From Bolinopsis microptera (Eukaryota > Ctenophora > Tentaculata > Lobata > Bolinopsidae), in the NCBI RefSeq assembly GCF_026151205.1, contig NC_087076.1, forward strand, positions 22,438,828-22,502,827: a stretch of DNA of 64,000 nucleotides, in the 5' to 3' direction. Positions 9,881-61,303 of the stretch are shown piece after piece. The first letter of the stretch is position 1, and each line of letters opens with the position of its first letter. The translations under genes and the position numbers were made by a program. A model generated the notes under the pieces. It was not told the origin of the DNA, made no database searches, and saw only the letters and a list, made by a program, of their open reading frames with translations.

Positions 9881-10420
9881 TACTAGTACTTGAATTACAA
9901 CACTTCAACAGCTGTAGAGATAAGAAACGTATCGGTATATATTTTACCTGGGGACCCCAGGCTATTATGTTCATAAACATAAATATAAATATAAATAAAC
10001 ATAAATATAAATAAAGATTCGGCGGAATGACAGGCTGAGCGCCGCCCAGTAATATATATTTTGATAAAATTTAAAATTTAAGTTTGGTGTGTAGATTAGT
10101 GTGGAAATAAAAAAGATATTTTATCATATCATATATTTTAATAATGTGACAATCAGATATTGTTACCATGGCAACACTACTGTCTCCAGTCTCCATAGAG
10201 TATATACCTTTATAATTAACCCCTTATCTCGTAGCAGACGGTAAAGCAATTGGCTGATTTCTATTTGTATTTTGATTGTCCTAAATGAAATTAGGCTAGC
10301 GGACAAAATAATTTCTATAAGTGAAGGTATTTTAGACCCTGGATCTAATTATCTGATCGGTGCTAATTGCTCAAGAATGATTTGTGTCTTGAGGATGTCA
10401 TTTTAACAGATCAGCAGCGG
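9881..10420. other. No gene seen
   Basis: AT-rich spacer with a small (CATAAATATAAATA)n-type stretch near 9975-10015; nothing else is recognisable. Confidence 0.5.
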
Positions 10421-10422
10421 GA

Positions 10423-10462
10423 TTAGCAAGTTATGACAAAGGAAATACTGATTTATTATTAT
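10423..10462 (+). repeat. 45-bp target repeat, left unit
   Basis: GATTAGCAAGTTATGACAAA followed by GGAAATACTGATTTATTATT. The same unit occurs at 15629-15675 and three times at 18229-18350. It marks the left edge of the RLE-type LINE. Confidence 0.85.
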
Positions 10463-10599
10463 AAAGGGTCTCAATAAGAGGTCTCGACTGCCTAGGCGTC
10501 AGACCTTGGCAGTCGGTAGTTTTCCTCTGGCCCGGGATCAGCTGACCCTAGGGACCAGAGGATAAAGGTGTAGAAACTATATGTATCTACAAAACTTTC

Positions 10600-11165
10600 A
10601 AGGTTGTTTTTACAAGAGACAGGGCTTGCTGCGCAAGGGAAGAAAAGCGGGAGAAACACTCACAAATTATACAAATAAATATTATAAAACATAGCAAAAA
10701 GAAATTCAAACAATCCTACACTACTACAAATGTTTATTACATACTACAATGTGATACATGATAATTATATGCTGTATAGACAAGAAACAGGGCTTGCAGG
10801 GCAAGAGATGGATCAAAGGGACTAGTCACAGAGTGTAATATACAGTGATTCAGCAAGAACCCATTGCTGAATCTGGCACACAAAATACCACAATCAATAC
10901 AAAAATATACAATATTATATCAAACAATATGTTTATACAAGAATCAGGGCATGCAGAGCAAGAGAAGAAAAATAAGAGAAAACTACCATCAACTGTATAT
11001 ACCGTAGTCCATCAGATAGGTAATCATTACTAATACACAAATCAGCAGGGCTAACAACAATATAAAATCCATAATAAATACTCAATCTACCCAATATACG
11101 AGTTAAAAATTGTATAAACAAGAGACAGGGCTTGCATAGCAAGGGAAGAAAAATAAGAGGACCAG
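10600..11165 (-). repeat. Four diverged repeats in the LINE 3' UTR
   Basis: Repeats begin near 10613, 10778, 10936 and 11118, each with AGGGCTTGC...GCAAG, so each can form a short CTTGC/GCAAG hairpin. Spacing is about 160-180 bp. They lie downstream of the LINE stop codon, where such elements carry the RNA structure bound by the RT; that role here is inference. Confidence 0.7.
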
Positions 11166-11247
11166 GTAAAAAGTGTTTATTAGAGTACCCAGTGAAAATT
11201 AAACTTTAAAAAAAGAGTATTTACAGTGTATTATACACTCAAATATA

Positions 11248-14200
11248 TTATATGTCTAAGACCATCCTGAGAATCCTGGCTGATCCAAGCAGAGCTGTCT
11301 TCTGGAGATTAGAGATGCTCAGATTGCAGTGGACTGCGTCGAGGTGTTTACGAAAGTTTATGGTGATAGTTCCTAATGCGCCTATCACCACAGGGACGAT
11401 TGTGACCTTTCGTAAATTCCAGTTCTTCTTAATTTCTCTTTTCAGGTCTTGATATTTCAGAATCTTTTCTTGTTCTCTATCCAAGATCCGGGTATCTCCT
11501 GGGACTGCAACGTCAATGATGGTTGCTGCGTTGGTTACCTTGTCTACCAGGAGGAGATCCGGTCTACAGTGTTCGATAACGTGGTCCGACTGGACATGGA
11601 AGTCCCACAATATCTTGACTTGTCCGTTCTCCAGCACCTTCTCTGCCCGGTGTTCGTACCACTTTTTACTGCGTGGGAAGCCGTATTCCTTGCACAGACT
11701 CCAGTGCAATGCGGCAGCTACTTTGTCATGCCGACACTTATATTCTGTCTGTGAAAGTTTTGGGCACCCATTCAGTATGTGGTCTATTGTCTCGTAATGA
11801 TTTCTGCAGAGTCTGCAGAGGGGAGAAGAGCCAGGTGTTTTGTCAATCCTGTGCTTCACGTAATTAGTCCTAAGTGCTTGGTCTTGGGCTGCTATCAACA
11901 ATCCTTCTGTCTCCTTCTTCAAATCTTGTTGGGTGAGCCAGTTCCAAGAGGTTAACGGGTCTGCTGTACCCATCATCTGCCTTGGGAACTGTCCGTGCAT
12001 CACTTTAGCAGTCCATTTCTCCTTGCGGATTTCCTCGCGTTGTGTTCGGTCAATATCTTTCTCTATCTCTTCACCCAAGAGTATCTTGTCTTTGACAAAG
12101 TAGTCCTTCAGAGCAATCAGTTCTGGGTCTCTACTTCTCACCACATAAGTGGTGAGTGCATTCTCCTCTCTCTTAACGACTTCCTCTATACTATGTAGCC
12201 CACGGCCACCCAGTTGACGGCTGACGTATAACCGATCAACATCTCCTTGGGGGTGGTGAGCTCCATGTATCCTCATCAGTTTCCGGGTCTTGACATCTAA
12301 GGCTTTGGTCTCCCCAGCATTCCATGAGAGAATTCCAGCTCCATATCTTATCACAGGTACAGCCCAGGTGTTAATCGCTTGTATACTATTCCTGCCATGA
12401 AGCTGGGATTTCAAAACCTTTTTAACTCTTCTGATATACTCTTTTGTAACCAGTGCTTTCATCTCTTTGTGCAGTATATCATTGGCTTCTAGTATTCCGA
12501 GATACTTATAGCCGTCGTCCTCCAACTCATGGATCTGTTCACCTGTGGGTAGGGAGATGCCTTCAAAAACGGCTCTTGCTCCCTTCTTCACCTTCACCAC
12601 GGCACATTTCTCTAGCCCAAATTCCATTTTTATGTCACTGCTGAACTCTGCTGTGGTATTAACCAGTGTGTGCATTTCGTCTTCACTCTCGGCATACAAC
12701 TTGAGGTCGTCCATATATAGCCTATGCGACACTTTCGGTTGACCTCCTCTCTCCAGAGAGTATCCTATGTCATGCTTATTCAAAAGAATGGACAGGGGTA
12801 TAAGACTAATGATAAAGTGGATAGGTGAGACTGAGTCTCCTTGGAATAGACCTCTATTAATTTTAATTCTCCCAAGGGAAACTTTACCAAGCATCAGGTT
12901 AACATACGATTGTTTGAAGGAGGCTTCAAACAGGTCTATGATGCATGAAGAGATGCCACACATGGTCAAACAAGATAGAATCCAGGAGTGTGGGACGCTA
13001 TCATACGCCTTCTTGTAGTCTATAAACGTCATGTTCAGGTTCCGCTTCCTTCGTTTACAGTTCTTCAGGATGAGTTTGTCTATCATTAACTGTTCTTTAC
13101 ATCCTCTACTCTTCTTCTTGCACCCTTTCTGCTCAGGGGGGAGGAGATTTTGCTGGTCTAAATGGTGGTAAATGGAATCTGAGATTAGACCAGTGAACAG
13201 TTTCCACATAGCTGATAAGCAAGTAATCGGTCTGAAATTGCCTGGGATGGGTCCTTTCGAGTGGTCCTTGATGAGCAGGTACGTGCGTCCCAATGTCATC
13301 CAGTCTGGGATATCAGCGTTGGTTAGGCAATTCATAAGTTGATCTGCAATCCTATTGTGGAGTTCATTAAAGTGCTTTATCCAATAAGCATGCAGTCCGT
13401 CTGTACCAGGAGAGGACCAATTAGTCATTTTCTTCACTCTATCTGCAACCAGGGTGTTAGTTATAACAAACTGTCTCTGTTCATCTGCTGAGGCTAGTGC
13501 TGTTCTGACATCCGGTAACCATTCAGCATCACTGTTGTGTTCAACCGGCTGCTCCCATATGTTCTTCCAGAACTTCAGACAAGAATCCTTGTCAGCCTCA
13601 GGGTGGGAGATATCCTGTTCTTCAGGGTTTGTTTGAAGGTTTCTGTAGAACTGCCTCTGGTTGTTTCCAAACAACTTGTTCTGGTGGTATCGTTCGCATC
13701 TTTTATTAAATCTCTTTATCTTAGCTGCTTTTGCGCGAAGACGTTGCTTGAGCTCCTCAATGATGCATGGTATACCCTTTTTCTTCAACAGAGGGTGACG
13801 TCTGTTGAGCCCTTCTAGTATTTTTTGTTTAAGGGTAGTACCTTTCTTCTTCTCCTCAAGGTAGGAGATGTCTTTCCTAACCTGGGTAATCTTATCTTCG
13901 ATTCTTCTTTTCCATAGTGGAGTTTTCCGTTTCCCTGTATTCTTATTTGCAGGTTTTTCACCAAGTCTTTCGCTGACTAAATGTGCCCCTGCAAGCAATA
14001 GGGTGTTGGTTTCAGTGATTGAAGAAGTTGGAATCTCTGCTATACATGAGTTGATGAGAGATGTTTCCTCCATAAGCTTCTTTCTGTTCACATGTCTCAG
14101 GGGCTTGGTTTCTATCACTGAAGGGTCTTCTAGGAGCCTTTTTAGCCGTTCAATGATTGCCTCCTTGTCAAAATCAGGTACCGTTGTGGTGGGGGTGAGT

Positions 14201-14655
14201 TCTTCGGCGGCGACAGTTGGGATAGTTGCATCCCTCAACGTCCTGATTGCTTGGGAGACTGTGGGTAAAGCTTGAGTTGTCGTTGTTGGAGCCTCTTCCA
14301 CTACGCTAGGTGGAAGAGTACCTCGAATCTCCAGTAGTTCTATGTCTGAAAGGAGATTATTATTTCTGATTGACCTTGCTTGGTCTGCCAATCTTTGTTC
14401 CGTACAAGTGAAGAGTCCGGCATCATCCCACAGTGATCGGAGTCTTCTCCTGTAACCAGAGCGGGATGGTTGGCTCTGGTAATACAGCGTCATGAGCTGT
14501 ATGTTGTCCTCCTTGCTCCACGTGTGCCGAGTGGAAGTCTCCGTGCGAGCCTTCCTGTCACGTCGAGCTGGAGGGATGATGTTAGGTTGTTGATCCTGCT
14601 CTGACCCATTAGTAGGGAGAGTAGGAGAGTTTGAAAAATTTGAGAGAGAATTCAT
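11248..14655 (-). CDS. RT/restriction-like endonuclease polyprotein (R2/R4-type LINE)
   Basis: An intact 1,135-residue ORF. The N-terminal part has a Myb/SANT-like stretch (WSKEDNIQLM near residue 45). The central reverse transcriptase shows the expected blocks in order: WSSPGTDGLH, NFRPITCLS, FIDYKKAYDSV (catalytic Asp), GLFQGDSVSP and YMDD (catalytic Asp pair). The C-terminal part has a CCHC-like knuckle (CRLCRNHYETIDHILNGC), RHD, and the PDLLLV...IDVAVPGD signature of the restriction-like endonuclease of R2-type LINEs. It nicks target DNA and primes reverse transcription there. No internal stop or frameshift is seen, so it is a recent and possibly active copy. No N-terminal zinc fingers were spotted, unlike canonical R2. 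Confidence 0.95.
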   Translation of the reverse strand: MNSLSNFSNSPTLPTNGSEQDQQPNIIPPARRDRKARTETSTRHTWSKEDNIQLMTLYYQSQPSRSGYRRRLRSLWDDAGLFTCTEQRLADQARSIRNNNLLSDIELLEIRGTLPPSVVEEAPTTTTQALPTVSQAIRTLRDATIPTVAAEELTPTTTVPDFDKEAIIERLKRLLEDPSVIETKPLRHVNRKKLMEETSLINSCIAEIPTSSITETNTLLLAGAHLVSERLGEKPANKNTGKRKTPLWKRRIEDKITQVRKDISYLEEKKKGTTLKQKILEGLNRRHPLLKKKGIPCIIEELKQRLRAKAAKIKRFNKRCERYHQNKLFGNNQRQFYRNLQTNPEEQDISHPEADKDSCLKFWKNIWEQPVEHNSDAEWLPDVRTALASADEQRQFVITNTLVADRVKKMTNWSSPGTDGLHAYWIKHFNELHNRIADQLMNCLTNADIPDWMTLGRTYLLIKDHSKGPIPGNFRPITCLSAMWKLFTGLISDSIYHHLDQQNLLPPEQKGCKKKSRGCKEQLMIDKLILKNCKRRKRNLNMTFIDYKKAYDSVPHSWILSCLTMCGISSCIIDLFEASFKQSYVNLMLGKVSLGRIKINRGLFQGDSVSPIHFIISLIPLSILLNKHDIGYSLERGGQPKVSHRLYMDDLKLYAESEDEMHTLVNTTAEFSSDIKMEFGLEKCAVVKVKKGARAVFEGISLPTGEQIHELEDDGYKYLGILEANDILHKEMKALVTKEYIRRVKKVLKSQLHGRNSIQAINTWAVPVIRYGAGILSWNAGETKALDVKTRKLMRIHGAHHPQGDVDRLYVSRQLGGRGLHSIEEVVKREENALTTYVVRSRDPELIALKDYFVKDKILLGEEIEKDIDRTQREEIRKEKWTAKVMHGQFPRQMMGTADPLTSWNWLTQQDLKKETEGLLIAAQDQALRTNYVKHRIDKTPGSSPLCRLCRNHYETIDHILNGCPKLSQTEYKCRHDKVAAALHWSLCKEYGFPRSKKWYEHRAEKVLENGQVKILWDFHVQSDHVIEHCRPDLLLVDKVTNAATIIDVAVPGDTRILDREQEKILKYQDLKREIKKNWNLRKVTIVPVVIGALGTITINFRKHLDAVHCNLSISNLQKTALLGSARILRMVLDI

Positions 14656-15187
14656 ATCATAACTGGGGGACTAAGTATACTTACTTAGTATACCCCCTAG
14701 AGAGTTGGCAGGGAAAACAGAGCACTGAGCGTTGCCCCGCGTCGCCCAGCTCCCCAGGTAGCTACCTCCTGGGTAGTAGACCCGTTAGTAACCATTTAAC
14801 CCATGGCCACGCATCCTTTTGTCACGAGTCCACAACTTAAGATTGGGGGACTTATGCGGGTCAGTCCATGCCCGATAAGAAAACCACTAGGTGTCAATTG
14901 CACCTAGTCAACAAACCAAGAGCTAGAGCAGAAGGATACAAGAATTTAACCAACGAGAGGCAAGAAAGGGAATTAACCGGGGGACAATTAACAAACAATA
15001 CAATGAAATATAAAATGATTACAATGTTATAATTACTCGAGTATAGTAACATTATAGATAGTAATATTTCCAAAGGAATGATATTCTTTCAGTACCAGCA
15101 GTCTGTGCTGCTATGATATGGAATAAAAATCAGGGGATATATTATCTTAAAATACTGCTTTCTCAGTTACAGATATTTTTCTTGGTT

Positions 15188-15262
15188 TTTCCATTTTGTG
15201 CTTTTTTTTTCTTTTTTTTTTCTTTTTAACTTTTTTTGTAATTTTCTTTTCTTTTTTCCCTC
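15188..15262. repeat. T-rich low-complexity tract in LINE leader
   Basis: Long runs of T broken by C and G within the 5' leader of the minus-strand LINE (A-rich on the element's sense strand). Confidence 0.7.
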
Positions 15263-15611
15263 CTAAACATGAATATTAAGCAAGTACAAAATCTCATGAT
15301 AACATTAAGTGATGTTGAGAAGGGACATAAGAGCCTGAGGTTCTGGTGGTCTACAGGTGTTTCACCAGCTGTTTGATCAAGTTCTAGCCCGTTACTTGGA
15401 CTAGTAACGGGGGAACTAACAGTGTTAATAGTTTAAACTTTGTGCTATAACTGAACCTCAGGAAGAAGACATCTGGCAATGCCAGGGAGTGAGTAGCTCT
15501 AGCCGGCAGCCATCCAATGGACTGCTGCCGTTACCGACCCCGGGGGTGCTGACCACGAGTATCAGCCTCGGACCCACTACTCACTAGCTCTGGTGTTCTG
15601 AGCGGGGGCCT

Positions 15612-15676
15612 TATTATTATTATTATTAGATTATCAAGTTCTGACAAAGGAAATGCTGATTTATTATTATTATTAT
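15612..15676 (+). repeat. 45-bp target repeat with (ATT)n, middle unit
   Basis: A TTATTATTATTATTA run followed by the GATTATCAAGTTCTGACAAA unit and a second ATT run. It separates the two LINEs and is the shared insertion target. Confidence 0.85.
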
Positions 15677-17848
15677 GCCTACCCGACAAAAAGACAGTCC
15701 GAGCGCAGACAAAATGAACGTGTTAATCCCAAACCATGGATACTGCCCTGGCTTGAAGAAGCTATAGAACGTAAAAATCAGGCATATCATGATTTTGTTA
15801 AGGAACCAGTTGATAGGAACCAGCTAAAATATGACCGTTTGAAAAAGTTTTGCACCAAACACGTTGACAAAGCCAAAAACATACACTACAAAAAATTCTT
15901 TGAACAACACAAAGATAATTCTAAGAAGCAGTGGCAGATGATTAACGGACTTCTGAATAGGAAACCAGCCAAACCTACATCGATAAAACTGTCGGACGAA
16001 AACGGACAAGTCAGCACTCCGGCAGCAGTAGCAGAAAAATTTAATGATCACTTCTCAAACATCGCTCCAAAAATTAAATCTGAAATTAGTAGTAGGACCA
16101 CTTTCGATCCTGGTGGGGCCCAGGGGACACTACGTAACCCTTCTCCAAATAGTATCTACATAAAACCAGTCACAACTACCGAAGTTCAAGACGTTATTAA
16201 CCTATTTAAGAATAAAGCTACTCTTGACACCAAAATCCAACCACTCAAAATTGCCAACAGCTGTCATAATTTTACCACTGTATTGGCCCACGTTGTTAAC
16301 AGCTCGTTCGAACAAGGGGTCTTTCCCCAAGCCTTGAAAACGGCAAAAGTAGTTCCTGTACATAAAGGTGGGTCTAAAACTGACATCAAAAATTACAGAC
16401 CGATATCTCTACTTGCCACTTTCTCAAAAGTCTACGAAAAGCTTATGCACAATCGAGTCATAAATTTCTTGGATACCTACAATATTCTTTGTGAAAATCA
16501 ATACGGCTTCCGCCCAGGTAGGTCTTGTGAACATGCACTTCTTAATGCTAAAGACAGAATCCTCAATTCAATGTCTAAAAAGCAAGTTACTTTGCTCCTT
16601 TTGATTGACTTTAGCAAAGCCTTTGACCTTGTGGATCACTCCATACTCCTGAATAAGCTCGAGCACTATGGCATAAGAGGTCTAGCTTTAAACTGGTTTA
16701 AATCATATCTTATGAACAGAAACCAGTTTGTATCAATTGGATCCTCTGAATCCTCAGCCAATCCAATTATTTACGGTGTACCCCAAGGTTCAATTTTGAG
16801 ACCTCTCCTTTTTATAATCTACATAAACGATCTTCCTCAAATATCAGAAATAGCTAATTTCATCATGTACGCAGATGATGCAAACATTTTCCTAACAGGA
16901 GAAAATATAAACGAGGTTTATGATAAGCTCAAAATTCTTAGCGATGTCTTAGTTAAATGGGTAGATAGCAACGGATTAGCTCTAAATCTTAAAAAAACGA
17001 ATTATATGATCTTTTCTCGACAAAGAAACCTCATTTATCGCGATGTAGTAATATCTGGTGTCACAATCGAAAGAAAAACAGAAGCCCGTTTCTTAGGTGT
17101 TATAATAGATAACAAACTGAACTGGTCGCAACATATTTCTGCCATGAAAATGAAAATGGCCAGATACATTGGAGTCATGTACAAACTTAAAAAATATTTG
17201 CCTCTGGAAGCACGTTTACAAATATATCACAGCTTTGTGCAGTCTCACCTTAATTACTGCTCCCTCGTCTGGGGTTTTGCTGCCAAATCCCATATAGAAA
17301 CACTATTTGTTAAACAGAAAATGGGTCTTAGAGCAATACTACCAGGTTTTGTTAATTACTGGTACAAAGATGGTACACCACCAGCAAGTACCAAGTCTGG
17401 TTTCTATGTACACAAAATATTGACAGTTCATAGTATCATCGTAAAGAACGCATTAGTTTTTATACATAAGCTAAAAAACTTCCCAAGTCTAGTGCCTCCC
17501 TCTATAAAGAAAACAATACCTAACAGTGCACCAATATTTAACGTCGCCGATCCGGATTCGAGTCTTACAACTTTATGGTCAGATGAATACAGTAAACACC
17601 CTTACAATAATTCAGTATTCTACAAAGGTCCACTATTAGCAATAAACAGATATAGTGTCGCAGCAACTTCCTTGCCAAGTCTATTCAACCTTAACATCTA
17701 CAAAAGGTGCATAAAAAACATGCTCATTGATCAACAAAACGAGGGCATTGCAGACGAATGGCCTAACTTTATGCTATACAATATTACGGGACTAAGGAAA
17801 TCAGAGCGCAACATCAACCGTAATGCTAATAATAACTCTGTCCCATAA
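15677..17848 (+). CDS. Reverse transcriptase of CR1/L2-like LINE (5'-truncated)
   Basis: An open frame of about 720 codons. The apparent ATG at 15653 lies in the flanking target repeat, so real element coding begins near 15677. RT blocks are clear: NYRPISLLATFSKVYEKL, QYGFRPGRSCEHAL, LLIDFSKAFDLVDH (catalytic Asp), YGVPQGSIL and YADDANIFL (catalytic pair). The block after GSIL reads RPLLF where the family usually has GPLLF. The region after the RT (FLGVIIDNKLNW, LNYCSLVWG) is typical of CR1/L2/Jockey-type elements. The endonuclease half is absent, so the copy cannot be autonomous, but the surviving frame has no stop. Confidence 0.9.
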   Translation, partial: AYPTKRQSERRQNERVNPKPWILPWLEEAIERKNQAYHDFVKEPVDRNQLKYDRLKKFCTKHVDKAKNIHYKKFFEQHKDNSKKQWQMINGLLNRKPAKPTSIKLSDENGQVSTPAAVAEKFNDHFSNIAPKIKSEISSRTTFDPGGAQGTLRNPSPNSIYIKPVTTTEVQDVINLFKNKATLDTKIQPLKIANSCHNFTTVLAHVVNSSFEQGVFPQALKTAKVVPVHKGGSKTDIKNYRPISLLATFSKVYEKLMHNRVINFLDTYNILCENQYGFRPGRSCEHALLNAKDRILNSMSKKQVTLLLLIDFSKAFDLVDHSILLNKLEHYGIRGLALNWFKSYLMNRNQFVSIGSSESSANPIIYGVPQGSILRPLLFIIYINDLPQISEIANFIMYADDANIFLTGENINEVYDKLKILSDVLVKWVDSNGLALNLKKTNYMIFSRQRNLIYRDVVISGVTIERKTEARFLGVIIDNKLNWSQHISAMKMKMARYIGVMYKLKKYLPLEARLQIYHSFVQSHLNYCSLVWGFAAKSHIETLFVKQKMGLRAILPGFVNYWYKDGTPPASTKSGFYVHKILTVHSIIVKNALVFIHKLKNFPSLVPPSIKKTIPNSAPIFNVADPDSSLTTLWSDEYSKHPYNNSVFYKGPLLAINRYSVAATSLPSLFNLNIYKRCIKNMLIDQQNEGIADEWPNFMLYNITGLRKSERNINRNANNNSVP

Positions 17849-18228
17849 GCACGCCATCACAGAATCAATTTCACTGCATACCATCTCAGTTACACTGCCA
17901 TCAATTCGCCAGCAAAAACGGCATGACGCTATGCGACTGATAACAGTCGTTAAATTTTAAAAATTTTGGAATAGCTAGCTAGCAGTATGCGCCTGTTTCC
18001 ACTCTAACAACTCTAAAAGCATATTAATATGATAATTTCAACTAAAGGCAACTTTAAATGTGCTCAGCTATGTTTTGTTCGACAAGCTCTATTATATACA
18101 TTTTAATCGTTTTAATGAGATCTAATCTTGTATGAGTTTTGAGTTTGAATTGATAACACTTATTATATATATTATTTTTTGAGTAAACATTGGCTGGTAC
18201 TTCGGGCCGGTCCCCAACAAAAAAAAAT
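15677..18228 (+). mobile_element. 5'-truncated CR1/L2-like LINE
   Basis: Begins abruptly after an (ATT)n run and ends after a short A-rich tail, just before further ATT-bearing target repeats. It carries the ORF described at 15677-17848 and a ~380-base 3' UTR. There is no apurinic endonuclease domain, so the 5' half is missing. Confidence 0.75.
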
Positions 18229-18350
18229 TATTAGATTAGCAAGTTCTGACAAAGGAAATACTGAATTAATATTATTGTTATTAGATTAGCAAGTTCTAAC
18301 AAAGGAAATACTGAATTAATATTATTATCATTAGATTAGCAAGTTCTGAC
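18229..18350 (+). repeat. 45-bp tandem repeats with ATT runs, right units
   Basis: Three consecutive units of TTAGATTAGCAAGTTCTGAC followed by AAAGGAAATACTGA and a TTATTA run; the third is partial. They match the units flanking both LINEs. Confidence 0.9.
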
Positions 18351-19810
18351 ACAATGAACTGGTCAGAACGGTGACCAGTACAAATCACAATGCTGGCAAG
18401 CATTACCGTCGCCCTTATATTCACAATACTATTTACCCCTATACTAGTATATCCCCTTTATTGTTTTCCAGGCATTAAGACTCATCGAAAGTAGTTCAGC
18501 AGGTACCTATATTTAAGTTCAAAACATTCTAATTCAATGTTAAAGATGACAGGAATAAGAAATAGTTATGTGGAGGTTTTTAAGAAATTTGCGCAAAATA
18601 CGCGCCAGCATGTTATACGAAATTAGGTAAAAAACCCAAAATCGCCATATTCAGGTGCCTTAAAAACCATGTTAAAATTGAGTAAGAGATCTGAAACTTT
18701 GCAGGGCGTCTAGACCTTGTCCAAATCGACTGTAAAAAAAATTTCATGTTTCAGGAGTATCGGGAAGTGGGTTTTCTGGAACCCCTGTTTTACAACAGAT
18801 TGTCGTGAAGTATAGTATAGACGCTTTTGCAGTCAATTTGCAGTCAATTGTAGCCTACATTTAAGTGTCCGTAGATTCAAAAGTATAAAAGATACAGTCA
18901 TTTCGAACCACAGGTTTTAAAGATAATTGTTTATACTTTAGTTTACATTATATCAAAAAATAATTTATCTTCATCATCATCACTTGATGACGTCATCAAA
19001 TTAAGTGTTTTTAAAACTTGATTTTTGACAAAGTAACAACTTTTCAAATCGATTTTAAACCATTAAGGAGTAATTTTATTCAAAATCTGAGGACATTTTT
19101 ATCTTAGATAATTGTTCAAGCATTCTGAAAATCTACCGGAAAAGTTTCTTACTTTGCTCCTTCATAAAGATATTCGCTATTGAAGTAAGTGCTTTTTTGA
19201 AGAATAATTTTATAAAAACACAAAAGTTGTGAATTAGTATTCTCTGGTGTTGGGCTATCCCTTGGGTTGTGGAGCTCAATTTTGCTTCCTAAAGGTCTAA
19301 ATTGTGTTATAGGCTAGTTTTAAAGTTGAAAATCAAAAAGTTGCACACGTGGGGACACGCCCAATTTGATAGAAAATTGCTAAAATTACTGAAAATTGCT
19401 GTTTTCACCATTTTTATCAACTTTGGAGTCCCGTTGTGATCCAAGTTCTATATGAAATCTTCTGAAACTTTGCATGCTTATTAAACTATATATAAAATAC
19501 TGCTATGCAAAAATTTACGGTGATTCAATATTGTATCCGCACGCAACGTCCGCTCAAAGTTTGCACGTGCGAAAGGTGAGAATTTTGCTCATTCGTGATT
19601 TCGAATAAATTCTGCTTTCCCACGATATTTAAATGGCATTATATATGAATTTAATGCCAACTTGAATGAGTAAAAAGTGCCATATTCAGTCAGGTAAAAT
19701 TTCGAAATCGATGAAATTACCTCCTAATTATTAATATAAATATTAATTAAGTTATGAGTTTACATTTCGGCTTTGTAAATTATCCTGACATTATAATCAA
19801 AAAGAGATGA
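18351..19810. other. No gene seen
   Basis: AT-rich sequence with only short open frames. Nothing recognised on either strand. Confidence 0.5.
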
Positions 19811-20143
19811 TATTTGACCAAAACCCATAATCATGGGTAGAGTGTACCGCTGCCAGTGTCTCTCTTTTCCAAACAAAAGGAAATGATATTAATTTGAATA
19901 ACCGTCCGAAAATGCAAATTGATACCGAGAATGAAATCGGTCGCTCGCTTTTTCCAATCAATAAGCTTTATATTACAATTCGTAAGCCGTGATCGAATGG
20001 AAAAAGCGAGCGACCGATTTCATTCTCGGTATCAATTTGCATTTTCGGACGGTTATTCAAATTAATATCATTTCCTTTTGTTTGGAAAAGAGAGACACTG
20101 GCAGCGGTACACTCTACCCATGATTATGGGTTTTGGTCAAATA
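19811..20143. repeat. Near-perfect 146-bp inverted repeat
   Basis: The left arm 19811-19956 is the reverse complement of the right arm 19998-20143 with at most a few differences; the spacer is 41 bp. The outer ends read TATTTGACCAAAACCC. No clear target duplication was found. It ends 76 bases before the predicted start codon of the repeat-peptide precursor, so it would lie in that gene's promoter or 5' leader. Confidence 0.9.
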
Positions 20144-20219
20144 CAGCATAACAAATATAACCCTCACTTACATTTCCAGAAAATCGTATCTTGCAGCAAA
20201 TCACTTTATTCACCAAACT

Positions 20220-20783
20220 ATGATGAAGCTCACCAATACCCTTATTTGTCTGACCCTTGTAGTCCTTGTCACTTGCAGAACCCTCGAGCTGGAGGACGAC
20301 CAAACAATTGGGTGGGGCAAAGCAGAGGAGGATGAGCAAACAATTGGGTGGGGCAAAACAGAGGAGGATGACCAAACAAGTGGTTGGGGCCGGGCAGAAG
20401 CAGCTGAGGGGAACATGGGTGGAGGTGCTGAGCTTGCGGAGGGGAATATGGGTGGAGGTGCTGAGCTTGCGGAGGGGAACATGGGTGGAGGTGCTGAGCT
20501 TGCGGAGGGGAACATGGGTGGAGGTGCTGAGCTTGCGGAGGGGAACATGGGTGGAGGTGCTGAGCTTGCGGAGGGGAACATGGGTGGAGGTGCTGAGCTT
20601 GCGGAGGGGAATATGGGTGGAGGTGCTGAGCTTGCGGAGGGGAACATGGGTGGAGGTGCTGAGCTTGCGGAGGGGAACATGGGTGGAGGTGCTGAGCTTG
20701 CGGAGGGGAATATGGGTGGAGGTGCTGAGCTTGCGGAGGAGGAGCAGCACTTTGGTCTTGGAGCAGGAGAGGGAATATTTTAA
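20220..20783 (+). CDS. Candidate secreted neuropeptide precursor with GW-amide-like repeats
   Basis: Starting at the ATG at 20220 the product is 187 residues. Residues 1-19 form a signal peptide: hydrophobic core LICLTLVVLV, likely cleavage after VTC. Residues 25-60 are three 12-residue repeats, each acidic residues, Gln, then a short GWGK or GWGR block (QTIGWGK at 28 and 40, QTSGWGR at 52). In cnidarian precursors such as the anthozoan RFamides, an acidic stretch precedes an N-terminal Gln (which cyclises) and Gly plus one basic residue gives C-terminal amidation. By analogy this would release pQTIGW-amide twice and pQTSGW-amide once. Residues 62-171 are ten 11-residue AEGNMGGGAEL repeats (33-bp units) without basic sites. 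The function is inferred; a secreted structural or mucus protein is the alternative. An upstream in-frame Met at 20133 would bury the signal peptide. Confidence 0.6.
   Translation: MMKLTNTLICLTLVVLVTCRTLELEDDQTIGWGKAEEDEQTIGWGKTEEDDQTSGWGRAEAAEGNMGGGAELAEGNMGGGAELAEGNMGGGAELAEGNMGGGAELAEGNMGGGAELAEGNMGGGAELAEGNMGGGAELAEGNMGGGAELAEGNMGGGAELAEGNMGGGAELAEEEQHFGLGAGEGIF
20400..20735 (+). repeat. 33-bp coding minisatellite, 10 units
   Basis: Ten 33-bp repeats inside the precursor gene, each containing GGGGAACATGGGTGGAGGTG or the AAT variant (units 2, 7 and 10). The length divides by three, so copy-number change preserves the frame. Confidence 0.95.
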
Positions 20784-24100: not shown

Positions 24101-24732
24101 ACAATGTGATACTGTGTGACAAAGTTAAGATTGTCGTAGTAAAAGAAAGTTAATTTTCGATAAATTCATGTGAGGTACTATCGAAGTTCAAATTGTTGTG
24201 ATGGGTGACATGAAAATGACTGATAAGAGAAAGTTTTCATGTCAACTGTGCCATAATCCATAACAGCATGATGACTGTCAAAGTGTCGACCACTAGGTAC
24301 TTGGACGAACAAGTGTACCCGAGGTGTTCTGAGAGAATAAGGGGACAGGCTCGGGAACACGAACGCGCGCTAGCCGCTAGGGCAAAAAAGTGAAATGCAC
24401 AGCAAGCAAGCTATAAAAAGAAATTTGAAATGCCGTTTGGGCCTAATGCAGTGAGCCAGTAAGGTACGGTCGAAGGAGCAAGTGTGCAAGAGTGGAGTAT
24501 GGGGTCAGGTTTAAAGGATTGAGAGGGTGTAGTTAAAACTTAGGAGTTCTAAATCCTAATCAACTTGGCGTCCAATAGGGGACATTTCAAGAGGGTGCAT
24601 TTCAATTGTGGGCAACTGTGACCATAACGCAGGTACTGCAAAAATTACCACAACAAAGTGATCTCAGTCAAATAGGCGAGGGTAACTATTAGCATACTAG
24701 GGAGCAGAGTAAGATTAATTGTAAGAGAACGC
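24101..24732. other. CYFIP intron sequence, nothing recognised
   Basis: Unique-looking intronic sequence between the fold-back derivative and a minisatellite. Confidence 0.5.
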
Positions 24733-24992
24733 ATGCAGATTGCAGCCCCCACCTCCGCATGCAGTCCCCTTCCTCCGCAGTCCGCATGCAGTCCCCTTCC
24801 TCCGCATGCAGTCCCCTTCCTCCGCATGCAGCCCCCCACCTCCGCATGCAGTCCCCCACCTCCGCATGCAGTCCCCAACCCCCTGCGCATGCAGATTGCA
24901 GCCCCCACCTCCGCATGCAGTCCCCCACCTCCGCATGCAGTCCCCAACCCCCTGCGCATGCAGATTGCAGCCCCCACCTCCGCATGCAGTCA
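24733..24992. repeat. CCTCCGCATGCAG minisatellite
   Basis: About 15 units of a 17-20-bp repeat containing CCTCCGCATGCAGTCCCC, with a second-order ~70-bp unit marked by GCGCATGCAGATTGCAGCCC (three times). Long open frames here are repeat artefacts. Confidence 0.9.
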
Positions 24993-25065
24993 CTATGAGT
25001 TTTACACTCTCCCTTATTTTACAGTCAGTGGCGTACACACCATATACTGTACACTATTTCACTAA

Positions 25066-53839: not shown

Positions 53840-55670
53840 TAATTATACGTCACTAATTGGTGATATGATCTGATCTCCGTGGGACCCCTAATAATAAGGG
53901 GGCCTGGTCGTCGGCCTCTCCACTTTACTTTGGACAGTACGGCGGTACTACTACTACTAGAAACTGTACCTAAGACAGAACTTACACATTTAACTTGTTT
54001 CTACATAGAAACCTATAAGTTTTGTTCTAGATTCGCATTACAAGTTTTATTTTTTCTTTTCCCTTTATCATTTTGTATAATTCTTGTTAGTTTAGTTGTT
54101 CATTTTTTTTATTCAGGGCTTTGCAGACAATGTAAATCGAGAATATTGAGTTGTTGAAAATCAAAAAGTTAATATAACTTGTCACACTCAATAGCAATAA
54201 TATCTAAATCCCACAAATCATTATCAAGAAGTTACAGCAATCAATAATTCGCATAACACTTCTGAGCAGATCCAGGTAAGTCAAGACATCATCTTCGTAA
54301 GAGTGGTAGTTCTACACGATGCGGTGAATCCTCATGTCCTTGTCGCTGTGAGCTTTCTTCCTCTTCGTTGGGTTCTCTCCGACCAGGTAGGCTGCGTGCT
54401 TCCCATCTGTTGAACTCTGCTCCATCTGAAGTGCTGTGATGAAGTTGTAGATGGTGGGGTTGGAGTGTCCAAGGATAGTGGAGAACTTCTTGTTCCAGGA
54501 CTCCACGAAGTTGTTCGTTCTGTTCATGTGGAAGTGGGTCCGATCGTAAGCGTTCCAGGTCGTAACTCGCTCGTACTGCTCCTTGTAGCCAAGTCGCTGG
54601 ACAGCCCGCATCACCGCTTGACACAGATGAAAGTAGCAGCCGTCAACTTGTGCGGAAGGGAAGATGGCAGATAAGGCATTCCGGAGAGCTAGCTCGTAGT
54701 CCACCATGATGTTGTCTGGAGAGAAGTTGCCAAGACTGTCGAGGGCTTCGAAGGCTTTCTTGTAGATGGGGGTATCCTTGTGGGTGAGGAGGATGTAGAT
54801 GCAAGGGAAGACCCAGGTAGCGTCCTCGTTGAAGTTTACCATCTCAGCGTGAATGGTGAGGAGTTGGTAGAAGAGCTGAGGAGAAGAGGAGAAGGTCGCG
54901 TCCACGTACCAAGAGCTGCTGTCCTCCAGGGCTCGCAGGTTCTTCTCCGCGTCCCAAAGATGATAACTCGTTGCTCGTCGTCTTTGTTCTTTTGTTATCA
55001 AACTGGAGCATAGGTTCGCCTTTGATCCGCTTTATATACTGTTTGCCTCTATCATTATCTACGTTTCACTGAGCAACCTCTCTTCTTGGCTACAGTTGAT
55101 CAGATTCCTGGATGCGATCCCTCGTGACGTGTTCTCATGCCCTTGTTATGACCCATTGCATCTCGGCGCAGTGATATGAGTGTTATCTCACCGTAACAAG
55201 CTCATCATGCACTCGCTTAACCACCGTTGTGCAGACCGGACGCGATCTGATACGAACCAGAAAGTGGAACAAGAACTGTTCTTAGCAATCACAATGTTTA
55301 TGTTAAACTTTATCCAATTTAATTTTAATTAAAATTGATTTCGAAGTAACAAAGAGGAAAATAGAACTTTTAAAGCTAATCGATTTTGTTATATTAGCAG
55401 TGCTAGGTCTATCTTATAGGTACAGTTTCTAGTAGGTTTAGTACCGCCGTACTGTCCAAAGTAAAGCGGGTGTCATGTGATCCGCCGTACCGTCCAACCT
55501 TTTTGGAAACTACCGCCGTACCGTCCTCCGCTGTACCGTCCTCCGCCGGACTGTACACCGCCGCAGTGACTTCCGCCGCTGCGTCCTATACCCGCCCGAT
55601 AGGCGTCTGATAGGCGCCCAATAGGCGCCCGATAGGCGCCCGATAGGCCATGGTCTACGCTCGAATGACC
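53840..55670 (-). mobile_element. MULE-type element with degenerate transposase
   Basis: The transposase relic lies between inverted blocks: CTTTACTTTGGACAGTACGG at about 53924 and its reverse complement at about 55465, followed on both sides by TAGAAACTGTACCTA. Outside these, asymmetric sub-ends are shared with the 37.9-kb derivative (see there). No convincing 9-bp duplication, so the outer limits are set by homology between the two copies. Confidence 0.75.
54312..55001 (-). pseudogene. MULE transposase fragment
   Basis: A 229-codon open stretch with the MULE transposase core: SSSWYVDATFSSSPQLFYQL (first catalytic Asp in VDATF), PCIYILLTHKDTPIYKKAF, IMVDYELALRNAL (second Asp), GCYFHLCQAVMRAVQRLG, and NRTNNFVESWN (catalytic Glu). 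It cuts and inserts DNA as a DDE recombinase. Complete MULE proteins have an N-terminal DNA-binding zinc finger and often a C-terminal SWIM zinc finger; neither is present, and the stop follows soon after the Glu, so this is a truncated relic or the middle exon of a split gene. The D, D and E residues are all kept. Confidence 0.85.
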
Positions 55671-58440: not shown

Positions 58441-59811
58441 ATGGCAGACCGACCCTCAGAGCCTACCTCTACCGTGGTGGATACGTTTACAGCTCGAAGA
58501 AAGCTTATAACGTTCATCTCCATCTGCGCTTTTCAAACGGTTACATTCCTTAACTTCAACCTTCCTTACAGCTTCCTCCCGCTCTACAGCGAAGACCGGA
58601 ACATCTCCACCGCCTTGACTGGAGTAATTCTGGGTGGCTCCCACATTGGCTTGATATTTGGCCCCATATTCCTCGCCACCTTTCTTCTGGCCAAGTTTAC
58701 TACACCTGTGGTCATGTCCCTTTCTGCCGCCTGTCTTGGTCTCTTCACCTTGCTCTTCGCTCTGCTGGATATAGTTCAAGACTTGACTGTCTTCAAAATC
58801 CTAGCGGTGCTGGATCGTTTCCTGATTGGAATGCTAGGCGGCTGTATCAACACTATCATATTTTCAGCTCTACTTGCCATCTACCCTGATAAAGTTGGTG
58901 TTGTTACCTCCATTGGGGAGGCAGTGCTAAATGGTGCGGTGGCTTGTGCTCCTTTCATCGGGGCTGTGCTCTATTCTTCTAGCGGCTTCAAATTAGCGTT
59001 CATAGTTCCTGGAGCTATAGTGATGGTAAGCTCAATTCCTGCGACATTTTTCCCTAATTTTAGCAAGAAGGATCTCAAAGAAAATGAAGAAGTGAGCCTA
59101 GCTACTGAAAACTGGTCCTCATTTCTAGATCCTTGGCTGTTGTTCCCTCTTTGGCATTTGGCATTTGGCCAGATCCTCATGACCTATCACATGCCTCTTC
59201 TCTCAGTGTACGCAGAGCACACGTTCGGAGCAGACGTGGTCTGGTCCGGAACAGTCCAACTTGTCAGCACAGCAGTGGTTTGCATTTTCTCCCCACTATT
59301 AGGTATGCTCATTGACAAGTTTGGGCCCTGTAAAATGATGCTAGCCTCATGTGTTCTCCTCCCGCTGGTGTATGTCTGTGTGGGGCCCCTCCCTCTCCTC
59401 ACCTTCCTCGCCCCCTCCAGAACACAACTCATCACCTCCCTCGCCTTCTTAGGACTTGCTGTCCCCATGGCCTGTATCTCTGCTCTGCCGGTTATGTTTA
59501 ATGTGTACCGCGCGGCTCACCACGGCCACCTGCCCACGTGGGTTGTTAACTCGCTGGTTTCTCTTTACTGTGCTGCTTTCCCTACCGGCATCTTCATAGG
59601 GACCACTGTGTCGGGATTCATTGCTCCGTACGCTTCATTTGGCTGGTCTACTGGAATACTGGGGTTGATTTTCATTGCGGAGTCCATTGTTTGTGCCATC
59701 TACTGCTTCAAGGTTATGCAAATGGACAAGAAAATAGAGAAACCCAAGAAAAGAGCAAATGCTATCAAGTATACGACTATTTCCAAAGGGGAAAGCGATC
59801 CTGAGGGTTGA
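58441..59811 (+). CDS. SLC18B1-like: SLC18B1-like MFS transporter, intronless
   Basis: A complete 456-residue ORF; the ATG sits in a good context (GAAATGG). About 12 hydrophobic segments are visible: residues 20-45 (TFISICAFQTVTFLNF), then the usual pattern of two six-helix halves joined by a charged loop near 205-225 (SKKDLKENEEV). The first half has FKILAVLDRFLIGMLGG, YPDKVG and GFKLAF; the second has FLDPWLLFPLW, SPLLGMLIDKFGP and VGPLPLL. These match SLC18B1, a vesicular polyamine transporter of the major facilitator superfamily that uses the proton gradient; the substrate here is inferred. Absence of introns suggests a retrogene or loss of introns. It lies inside the 37-kb CYFIP intron on the opposite strand. 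Very different from surrounding DNA in GC content and free of repeats. Confidence 0.85.
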   Translation: MADRPSEPTSTVVDTFTARRKLITFISICAFQTVTFLNFNLPYSFLPLYSEDRNISTALTGVILGGSHIGLIFGPIFLATFLLAKFTTPVVMSLSAACLGLFTLLFALLDIVQDLTVFKILAVLDRFLIGMLGGCINTIIFSALLAIYPDKVGVVTSIGEAVLNGAVACAPFIGAVLYSSSGFKLAFIVPGAIVMVSSIPATFFPNFSKKDLKENEEVSLATENWSSFLDPWLLFPLWHLAFGQILMTYHMPLLSVYAEHTFGADVVWSGTVQLVSTAVVCIFSPLLGMLIDKFGPCKMMLASCVLLPLVYVCVGPLPLLTFLAPSRTQLITSLAFLGLAVPMACISALPVMFNVYRAAHHGHLPTWVVNSLVSLYCAAFPTGIFIGTTVSGFIAPYASFGWSTGILGLIFIAESIVCAIYCFKVMQMDKKIEKPKKRANAIKYTTISKGESDPEG

Positions 59812-59878: not shown

Positions 59879-60130
59879 ATTGAAGCATGAATTTATTAAA
59901 TGTATTCAATTTGTATAGTCATTGTTCTTATTTGTTAATAAATATGATTTACTGTTAACAAATTAGCTAGTTGCAAAATTAAAGATTCGTCGGAGAGGCT
60001 GGTGCCAATACAAATGATAACATTATTCAATAAAACCTTTTTCGAGAGAAGGATTATTCTGACCTGTCTGGTTTTACCATGTTTAGCCGTTAGCGGGTGG
60101 GTACACTACATGTACAACCGCCCTCTTACT

Positions 60131-60162
<32 letters not shown>

Positions 60163-60370
60163 ACACTACACCACCCTTTCTTATTGGGGGGGGGGGGGGG
60201 GGGTGGGTACACTACACCACCCCCTCTTATGGGGGGGGGGGGTACACTACATCACCCCCTCTTATAAGGGGGGTGGGTACACTACACCACCCCCTCTTAT
60301 GGGGGGGGGGGGGGGTACACTACATCACCCCCTCTTATTGGGGGGGGGGGGGGTACACTACACCACCCTT
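60131..60370. repeat. Poly-G/GTACACTACACCACC minisatellite
   Basis: Six diverged units of a G run (7-30 bases) plus GTACACTACACCACCC and TCTTAT. G-run lengths may be misread. Confidence 0.9.
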
Positions 60371-60404
60371 TCTTATTTGGCTGATAGCCGGCTGGGTAGT
60401 GGTA

Positions 60405-61187
60405 GCATCGCTACCTGGGGGCCCCTGCTACCAGAGGGGCCCCTGCTACCTGGGGGCCCCTGTTACCTGGGGGCCCCTGCTACCAGAGGGGCCCCTGCTA
60501 CCTGGGGGCCCCTGTTACCTGGGGGCCCCTGCTACCAGAGGGGCCCCTGCTACCTGGGGGCCCCTGTTACCTGGGGGCCCCTGCTACCAGAGGGGCCCCT
60601 GCTACCTGGGGGCCCCTGCTACCTGGGGGCCCCTGCTACCAGAGGGGCCCCTGCTACCAGAGGGGCCCCTGCTACCTGGGGCCCCTGTTACCTGGGGGCC
60701 CCTGCTACCAGAGGGGCCCCTGCTACCAGAGGGGCCCCTGCTACCAGAGGGGCCCCTGCTACCTGGGGGCCCCTGTTACCTGGGGGCCCCTGCTACCAGA
60801 GGGGCCCCTGCTACCTGGGGGCCCCTGTTACCTGGGGGCCCCTGCTACCAGAGGGGCCCCTGCTACCTGGGGGCCCCTGTTACCTGGGGGCCCCTGCTAC
60901 CAGAGGGGCCCCTGCTACCTGGGGGCCCCTGCTACCTGGGGCCCCTGTTACCAGAGGGGCCCCTGTTACCTGGGGGCCCCTGCTACCAGAGGGGCCCCTG
61001 CTACCAGAGGGGCCCCTGCTACCTGGGGCCCCTGTTACCAGAGGGGCCCCTGTTACCTGGGGGCCCCTGCTACCAGAGGGGCCCCTGCTACCAGAGGGGC
61101 CCCTGCTACCAGAGGGGCCCCTGCTACCAGAGGGGCCCCTGCTACCAGAGGGGCCCCTGCTACCAGAGGGGCCCCTGCTACCTGGGG
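60405..61187 (+). repeat. 18-bp minisatellite (CCTGCTACCNGNGGGGCC)n
   Basis: About 43 units of two alternating types: CCCTGCTACCAGAGGGGC and CCCTGCTACCTGGGGGCC. Long glycine/proline-rich frames through it are artefacts. Confidence 0.95.
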
Positions 61188-61203
61188 TTTCTCTGGCTGT
61201 CAG

Positions 61204-61303
61204 CTGTAAGAATAAAAGATATCTCCTGGTTGGAGAAAATGAGATAGTTTGCGGAGGAGATGGTGTCTGGTCCAGTGCTCCAGAGTGTAACCATGGTAAC
61301 TAA
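61204..61303 (+). CDS. Sushi (CCP) domain, terminal exon
   Basis: After an acceptor GGTTTCTCTGGCTGTCAG, the frame CKNKRYLLVGENEIVCGGDG continues VWSSAPEC and stops soon after. Cys, a G-spaced Cys, G.W and P.C match the second half of a sushi/CCP module of a secreted or surface protein. It cannot be linked to other exons in the window; the FTP exons at 32 kb on the same strand are a possible but distant partner. The minisatellite ends immediately before the acceptor. Confidence 0.55.

Follow-up and report, generated by a model that had tools for sequence, protein, structure and literature searches.

The stretch of DNA analysed here, referred to as the window, spans 64,000 nucleotides (C5:22438828-22502827 of a 264.65-Mb assembly in 232 contigs) and carries on its forward strand a single-exon gene whose frame runs unbroken, in the ORF translation, from the ATG at 20220 to the stop codon at 20781-20783. 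The parts of the gene and of its 5′ noncoding region, in window coordinates, are as follows.

10190..10462, + strand: noncoding block conserved between the window gene and its two closest paralogues, within the first 5′ piece (10057-10462) and now ~10 kb from the coding sequence on its upstream side
18284..18385, + strand: second 5′ piece, 96% identical to L002 1313-1414
20138..20219, + strand: third 5′ piece, reaching the ATG, with acceptor-like sites (splice sites by eye)
20220..20783, + strand: precursor coding sequence, single exon, 187 aa plus stop (ORF listing; purifying selection against two paralogues)
20220..20276, + strand: predicted signal peptide (by eye; a comparable segment in all six family members)
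20301..20321, + strand: unit 1, QTIGWGK, predicted pQTIGW-amide with the amide-donor Gly and a basic Lys (translation)
20337..20357, + strand: unit 2, QTIGWGK, predicted pQTIGW-amide (translation)
20373..20393, + strand: unit 3, QTSGWGR, predicted pQTSGW-amide (translation)
20409..20738, + strand: ten tandem 11-aa units GNMGGGAELAE, a private expansion (repeat spacing of 33 nt, comparison with relatives)
20745..20762, + strand: C-terminal island QHFGLG after EEE, possibly an FGL-type peptide, with Ala next instead of a basic residue (Q..G.G invariant in all six family members)

The N-terminus, MMKLTNTLICLTLVVLVTC, resembles a signal peptide by eye, with a basic residue, a hydrophobic core and V-T-C ahead of the expected cut, and is followed by three 12-residue units, ELEDDQTIGWGK, AEEDEQTIGWGK and TEEDDQTSGWGR, spaced 36 nt apart, each of which sets the amide-donor Gly directly before a basic residue. 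The ten GNMGGGAELAE copies behind them vary solely at one codon, which is AAC or AAT, and this near-identity points to a recent tandem expansion of the Gly/Met array. The protein closes with the tail EEEQHFGLGAGEGIF, which is absent from an earlier note on this DNA; what that note had described, namely the coordinates of the open reading frame, the three 12-residue units ending in GWGK, GWGK and GWGR, and the ten 11-residue Gly/Met units, was recovered by translation. It should be added that other frames across the repeats are also open in the ORF listing, for 156 aa on the reverse strand and 167 aa on the forward strand; since tandem repeats with periods divisible by three hold other frames open, an open frame alone is weak evidence, and relatives of the gene were therefore sought. 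A Pfam search of the protein at E 0.01 found no domain, and an Rfam search of the window at gathering thresholds gave no match.

The window gene shares a conserved 5′ noncoding block with its two closest paralogues, which lie on contig C2 and are labelled L002 and L004. In the window this block is split into the three pieces listed above and parted from the coding exon by inserts of about 7.8 kb (10463-18283) and 1.75 kb, so that the window copy may be poorly expressed. The first insert carries reverse-transcriptase-like ORFs at 11248-14655 (-) and 15653-17848 (+), recognised by eye, and at the end of the second lies a palindromic element (~19790-20143) of at least 354 bp, whose two 152-nt arms are 99% complementary. 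From 1837 first-look candidates for this element 40 places were scored, and in 25 of them, the window's own included, identity is 99-100%, which indicates that the element has recently been mobile; pieces related to it also occur downstream of the L002 gene. A donor-like AG|GTATTT near 10326 is conserved and an acceptor-like TTGCAG ends at 20196 (both by eye). Given that both sites are kept, the insertions may lie within an intron of the 5′ UTR, which, again by eye, would measure about 250 nt in L002 and 9.9 kb in the window gene.

Elsewhere in the window, a short repetitive stretch at 24645-25065 is open on both strands (104 and 110 aa) and is probably a minisatellite, and a minus-strand fragment at 54312-54842 carries MULE / Mutator-type transposase domains. 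A single-exon MFS transporter gene occupies 58441-59811 and is adjoined, at 60014-61303, by a repeat-rich ORF that ends with a Sushi-domain match just below the cut-off.

Relatives in the same assembly

Protein searches of the assembly returned five relatives of the window gene, giving a family of at least six genes. The search with the window protein produced 61 matches, the first four rows of which are the family itself, and the search with the L004 protein produced ten rows: five from the window gene, L002 and L004, three from new ORFs clustered 11-14 kb before L004 on C2, and two weak ones on C6 (E 0.565), which were rejected as relatives, being a Lys/Glu-rich stretch that lacks the conserved islands described below. 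The relatives are the following.

C2:9994735-9995031 (L002): 98 aa, four QTIGWGK units, one Gly/Met unit
C2:20009420-20009647 (first cluster gene): 75 aa, ENGQTIGWGRK ... EEEQSLGLGYG, no Gly/Met unit
C2:20010591-20010818 (second cluster gene): 75 aa, DDGQTFGLGHK ... EEEQHFGVGKR, no Gly/Met unit
C2:20012729-20012947 (third cluster gene): 72 aa, DNDQAFGLGVK ... EEEQGFGFGNK, no Gly/Met unit
C2:20023816-20024022 (L004): 68 aa, one QTIGWGR, degenerate Gly/Met unit

A Pfam search of these five proteins at E 0.1 gave just three matches, none of which reached the cut-off and all of which fall in the repeat protein of L002. When the six proteins are aligned, each begins with a signal-peptide-like segment, and nine columns are invariant, six of them accounted for by two Q-x-x-G-x-G islands with one Q and two G each. 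The N-terminal island, placed after the signal peptide, reads QTIGWG, QTFGLG or QAFGLG across the six members, and the one near the C-terminus reads (E/D)Q(H/S/G)(F/L)G(L/V/F)G, with a dibasic site after it in only one of the six genes. Among the N-terminal units of all six genes, eleven in number, nine have the form QT(I/S)GWG(K/R), the others being QTFGLGHK and QAFGLGVK. Both the invariant columns and the identity by region indicate that the core is conserved above the spacers: mean pairwise identity among L004 and the three cluster genes is 0.53 for the N-terminal island, 0.65 for the C-terminal island, 0.45 for the signal peptide and 0.26 for the spacer, in regions whose borders were chosen after the alignment had been viewed, which favours the islands. 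L002 and the window gene were omitted from this measure because they are near relatives of L004. The Gly/Met array, on the other hand, is by sequence comparison a private expansion: of the unit that it multiplies, the relatives carry a single copy or none.

These comparisons bear on the earlier note's proposal of an amidated peptide precursor. The five relatives support a secreted precursor in which conservation lies in the GWG(K/R) units and not in the Gly-rich repeats. Retention of the Gly-rich repeats with loss of GWG(K/R) had been named in the note as a pattern that would speak against its proposal, and the opposite was observed, GWG(K/R) being present in three of the five relatives and GLG in the other two, with a Gly/Met unit of any sort in only two.

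Purifying selection is apparent among the three closest paralogues. Over the 57 codons alignable without gaps, dN/dS among the window gene, L002 and L004 is 0.11, 0.19 and 0.25, the lowest value being that of the window gene against L002. Differences by codon position in the three pairwise comparisons are 1/3/8, 6/5/16 and 5/6/15 (Fisher p 0.0013, 7e-5 and 0.0011), so that third positions account for 8/12, 16/27 and 15/26 of the substitutions. The 57-codon set is made up of 21 codons from the signal peptide region, 11 from the last unit, the 12 that come directly behind this unit and the 13 at the C-terminal end, and leaves out the Gly/Met array and the other units. Constraint within it is uneven: against L004, four replacement changes and one silent change fall in the last 13 codons, and four replacement and four to five silent changes in the 12 codons that follow the unit. 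The last unit differs between L004 and L002 by three silent changes and a Lys to Arg replacement.

Like the bias towards third codon positions, the rarity of the repeated core goes beyond chance. Exact matches to (D/E)QTxGWG number eight in the whole 264.65-Mb genome, three in the window gene, three in L002, one in L004 and one on C6, and the reversed pattern used as a control gave none. The C6 match was discarded as a family member, since it sits inside an MTHFR gene.

Ctenophore setting and the probable link to FGLa

The earlier note had placed the gene in a cnidarian setting, and this did not hold: glutamate receptor and NPWa evidence mark the genome as that of a ctenophore, and the medusozoan pattern QPPG(V/A)WG has 0 matches in it. 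From 32 matches to the ligand domain of glutamate receptors, six loci were taken, and five of these were compared with the PDB. Three (L010, L011 and L012) matched only ML032222a, which we take to be a Mnemiopsis protein, or in the case of L012 also 4zdm, presumably a Pleurobrachia protein, at E 1e-25 or better (120, 113 and 185 bits, respectively). For the full ORF of L014 mammalian chains come first (195 bits), with 182 bits for ML032222a across the 256 residues of its chain; the S1 part alone gives 118 bits for ML032222a, 82 bits for the 'kainate-like protein' 4zdm and 55 bits for mammalian receptors. The full ORF of L009 has mammalian kainate receptors as its best PDB matches, with no ctenophore chain among the best 60 of 387. 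Identity to ML032222a is 85/110 positions in L012 and 55/110 in L010, and no examined locus is identical to it. Judged by their sequences, these loci place the genome among the ctenophores, near Mnemiopsis, a placement that is well supported for the phylum. Four ionotropic glutamate receptor genes, each a single open frame of 765-949 codons, lie within 27 kb at C12:11782391-11809362 (L011, L014).

A genome search with two B. mikado peptides yielded an NPWa-like exon on C13 (L015 1510-1593, - strand; C13:11682731-11682793), where GSDIKLAPGGGNPWGRK aligns with IGSDIKLVPGAGGNPWa at E 0.09; VWYa was not found in this search, in which one candidate was scored. A COX1 search of the assembly for a mitochondrial contig found none.

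In Bolinopsis mikado, amidated peptides from 13 precursors have been identified by mass spectrometry, FGLa among them, with the Mnemiopsis gene ML030511a (Hayakawa et al. 2022, PMC9525235), and the antigen for the FGLa antibody was Cys-QAFGLamide (PMC9525235). The pattern QAFG(L/F)G has four matches in the present genome, three QAFGLG and one QAFGFG, against two for the reversed control, which puts most of these matches at chance level. The QAFGFG match, on C34, lies in a 140-codon frame that has no clear signal peptide, and among the QAFGLG matches the one on C10 is flanked by stops within a degenerate GGTTTAGG-like stretch and the one at 8.94 Mb on C2 lies in a frame of 23 codons only; all three were set aside, although they might belong to separate exons. 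The only QAFGLG copy in a signal-peptide-like ORF is that of the third cluster gene (C2:20012729), in the place where its relatives carry QTIGWG or QTFGLG. In tblastn among the fetched loci, run with composition correction off, the window protein matches this gene at E 0.01 (0.001 in the reciprocal direction), L004 at 8e-8 and the first cluster gene at 7e-12. The window gene thus appears homologous to the QAFGLG gene, through a direct link that is weak and an indirect one, via L004 and the cluster gene, that is strong.

As QAFGLG occurs in a cluster gene with a signal-peptide-like start, either the FGLa gene itself or one closely paralogous to it is very probably a member of the family, to judge by the pentapeptide and the gene context, and the GW-amide genes would be its relatives. 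The cores in the window gene are QTIGW, QTSGW and QHFGL, the QAFGL core being absent from it and present in a paralogue, so that the gene would be a relative or variant of FGLa and not FGLa proper. The peptide type, which the earlier note could not name, is in this way narrowed to an FGLa-like ctenophore family; the mature peptide itself is still a prediction.

Predicted products and competing readings

In the mechanism proposed here, the signal peptide would direct the precursor into the secretory pathway, where cleavage at the acidic residue (D or E) that precedes Gln would set the N-terminal end and cleavage at the one basic residue behind Gly the C-terminal end, giving QTIGWG or QTSGWG once the basic residue has been trimmed. 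Glutaminyl cyclisation and peptidylglycine amidation by PAM would then yield two copies of pQTIGW-NH2 and one of pQTSGW-NH2, and a longer form beginning just after the preceding Lys is also conceivable. The tail, with its C-terminal island, may give a fourth, FGL-type peptide, e.g. pQHFGL-NH2, and the Gly/Met array would be a recently expanded spacer. The products would be released from neurons or from neurite-less secretory cells and would act on GPCRs. Acidic residues have been described as major sites of cleavage in B. mikado, pyroglutamate at the N-terminus is documented for ctenophores, and PAM is expressed in peptidergic cells of Mnemiopsis (PMC9525235). In the present genome a search for Cu2_monoox_C gave five rows, all over the cut-off, the best of which is a PAM-like gene (L030 268-3351; C8, around 11550860) with Cu2_monoox_C and NHL domains and peptidyl-glycine alpha-amidating monooxygenase as its best PDB match; it is apparently intronless, the two catalytic halves being read in a single open frame of more than 1000 codons.

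Some features of the family run against a simple set of processing rules. The acidic residue before Gln, which the earlier note had pointed out, is found in 8 of the 11 N-terminal units of the six genes and so is not universal; in the remaining three the position is taken by Gly, which a simple acidic-site rule does not accommodate. Likewise, the donor Gly is followed in two family members by H-K or V-K, where a basic residue would be expected to come at once.

It has further to be asked whether the precursor is one of signalling peptides at all. The gene could encode a secreted, Gly/Met-rich structural or glandular protein, of mucus or colloblast glue, in which the GWG units are mere low-complexity repeat, and indeed the ten GNMGGGAELAE units make up 110 of the 187 residues, and 57 of the 61 matches to the window protein, those outside the family, cover mainly the Gly/Met part of the query. 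That array, however, shrinks to one unit in L002, is degenerate in L004 and is missing from the three cluster genes, while the Q-x-x-G-x-G islands are kept in all six members and the five relatives measure just 68-98 aa, which makes a structural role highly improbable. A secreted amidated peptide might also act outside signalling, for instance as an antimicrobial or defensive product of gland cells in the epithelium or the pharynx. Its genes are few and in part arranged in tandem, their products are secreted, and the spacers change fast, as is the case in many defence peptides; the predicted products, on the other hand, are neutral pentapeptides, neither cationic nor cysteine-rich, and antimicrobial peptides are usually one or the other. 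FGLa was observed in B. mikado in cells that have no visible neurites (PMC9525235) and the cells that showed it in Vallicula had large vacuolar structures (PMC10826244), which would suit gland cells, but it was placed among the amidated peptides with a proposed neuroendocrine function (PMC9525235), and we regard a role outside signalling as very unlikely.

A different question, compatible with the best explanation of the family, is whether the window copy is a decaying pseudogene and the other members alone make the peptide. The two insertions, with their reverse-transcriptase-like ORFs and the palindromic element, that part the 5′ block from the coding exon favour decay; the intact frame, the low dN/dS against L002 and the retained donor-like and acceptor-like sites, by which a 5′ UTR intron may contain the insertions, oppose it, so that loss of function at this copy, while deserving consideration, seems unlikely. 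Among the six family genes, the window copy is the only one to encode pQTSGW.

We therefore consider it likely that the window gene is a secreted precursor of short amidated signalling peptides, processed as proposed, and one of at least six FGLa-like ctenophore paralogues. The sequences themselves show the structure of the gene, its paralogues, the purifying selection, the conserved islands, the ctenophore origin and a PAM gene in the genome; use of the signal peptide, processing, modification, expression and a receptor are inferred. A bolder extension, offered tentatively and at somewhat less than even chances, is that of a radiating ctenophore family of pQ-x-(I/F/L/S)-G-(W/L/V/F)-amides with two peptide sites per small precursor, in which single members multiply one site; the window gene would then fall in a GW-amide branch, that of pQTIGW-NH2 and pQTSGW-NH2, whose receptor would be distinct from that of FGLa. 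Were this so, the contexts QAFGLG-VK and QHFGLG-AG would imply that ctenophores expose the amide-donor Gly at places that have no adjacent basic residue.

Comparison with known amidated peptides

It is mostly by their peptides that ctenophore neurons have been recognised. The six genes, with their apparent tie to FGLa, provide concrete, short and cheaply synthesised candidates with exact [M+H]+ masses, namely 586.2984 for pQTIGW-NH2, 560.2463 for pQTSGW-NH2, 583.2987 for pQHFGL-NH2, 569.2830 for pQHFGV-NH2 and 517.2769 for pQAFGL-NH2, which could be sought in the public B. mikado peptidome (PXD030145). The gene cluster is also a case showing at which positions a ctenophore peptide is conserved. 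All other animals may have the ctenophores as their sister group (PMC10232365), and the peptide, if correctly read, would add to the signals of one of the oldest animal nervous systems. What appears to be new, on the sequences compared, is the GW-amide variant within the FGLa-like family, FGLa itself being already known. QTIGW has no literature match, though the family may already be listed in Mnemiopsis or B. mikado precursor tables or in Sachkova et al. 2021; for the variants IGW, SGW and TSGWG, the literature matches listed are, by title, insect peptides or unrelated. The words GW, IGW and SGW are absent from the available text of the cnidarian and review papers PMC9545775, PMC7523074, PMC6909153, PMC8638164 and PMC11087051, and GW-amide is absent among the 10 of 13 B. 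mikado precursors named in the main text of PMC9525235.

The GW-amide end recalls the bilaterian APGWamide and AKH-type GW-amides, two residues being common. The other residues and the layout of the precursor differ in those bilaterian systems. With the cnidarian Wamides (GLWamide, LRWamide, QPPGVWamide) and the placozoan PRWamide the window gene shares the non-basic, often acidic residue before a cyclising Gln as well as the single basic residue after the amide Gly, cf. placozoan DQPPRWGR (PMC9545775), but the core sequence is another one, and in the published clustering ctenophore precursors show no similarity to cnidarian ones (PMC9525235).

Nearer at hand, the gene resembles B. mikado NPWa, VWYa, RWFa, WTGa, NVFa/NIFa, TFQa, LNSa and PARa in having a secreted precursor, an amide-donor Gly and acidic or basic cleavage sites (PMC9525235), and NPWa also in its Trp-amide end; the published peptides IGSDIKLVPGAGGNPWa and ARVYKGYNGGNRVWYa have no motif in common with QTIGW (PMC9525235). 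The likeness to ctenophore FGLa lies in the family member that encodes DNDQAFGLG shortly past its signal peptide and in the QHFGLG at the tail of the window gene and of L002. The N-terminal peptide of the window gene differs from FGLa in carrying Trp for Leu before Gly (QTIGW, QTSGW), in being repeated three times and in having one basic residue directly after it.
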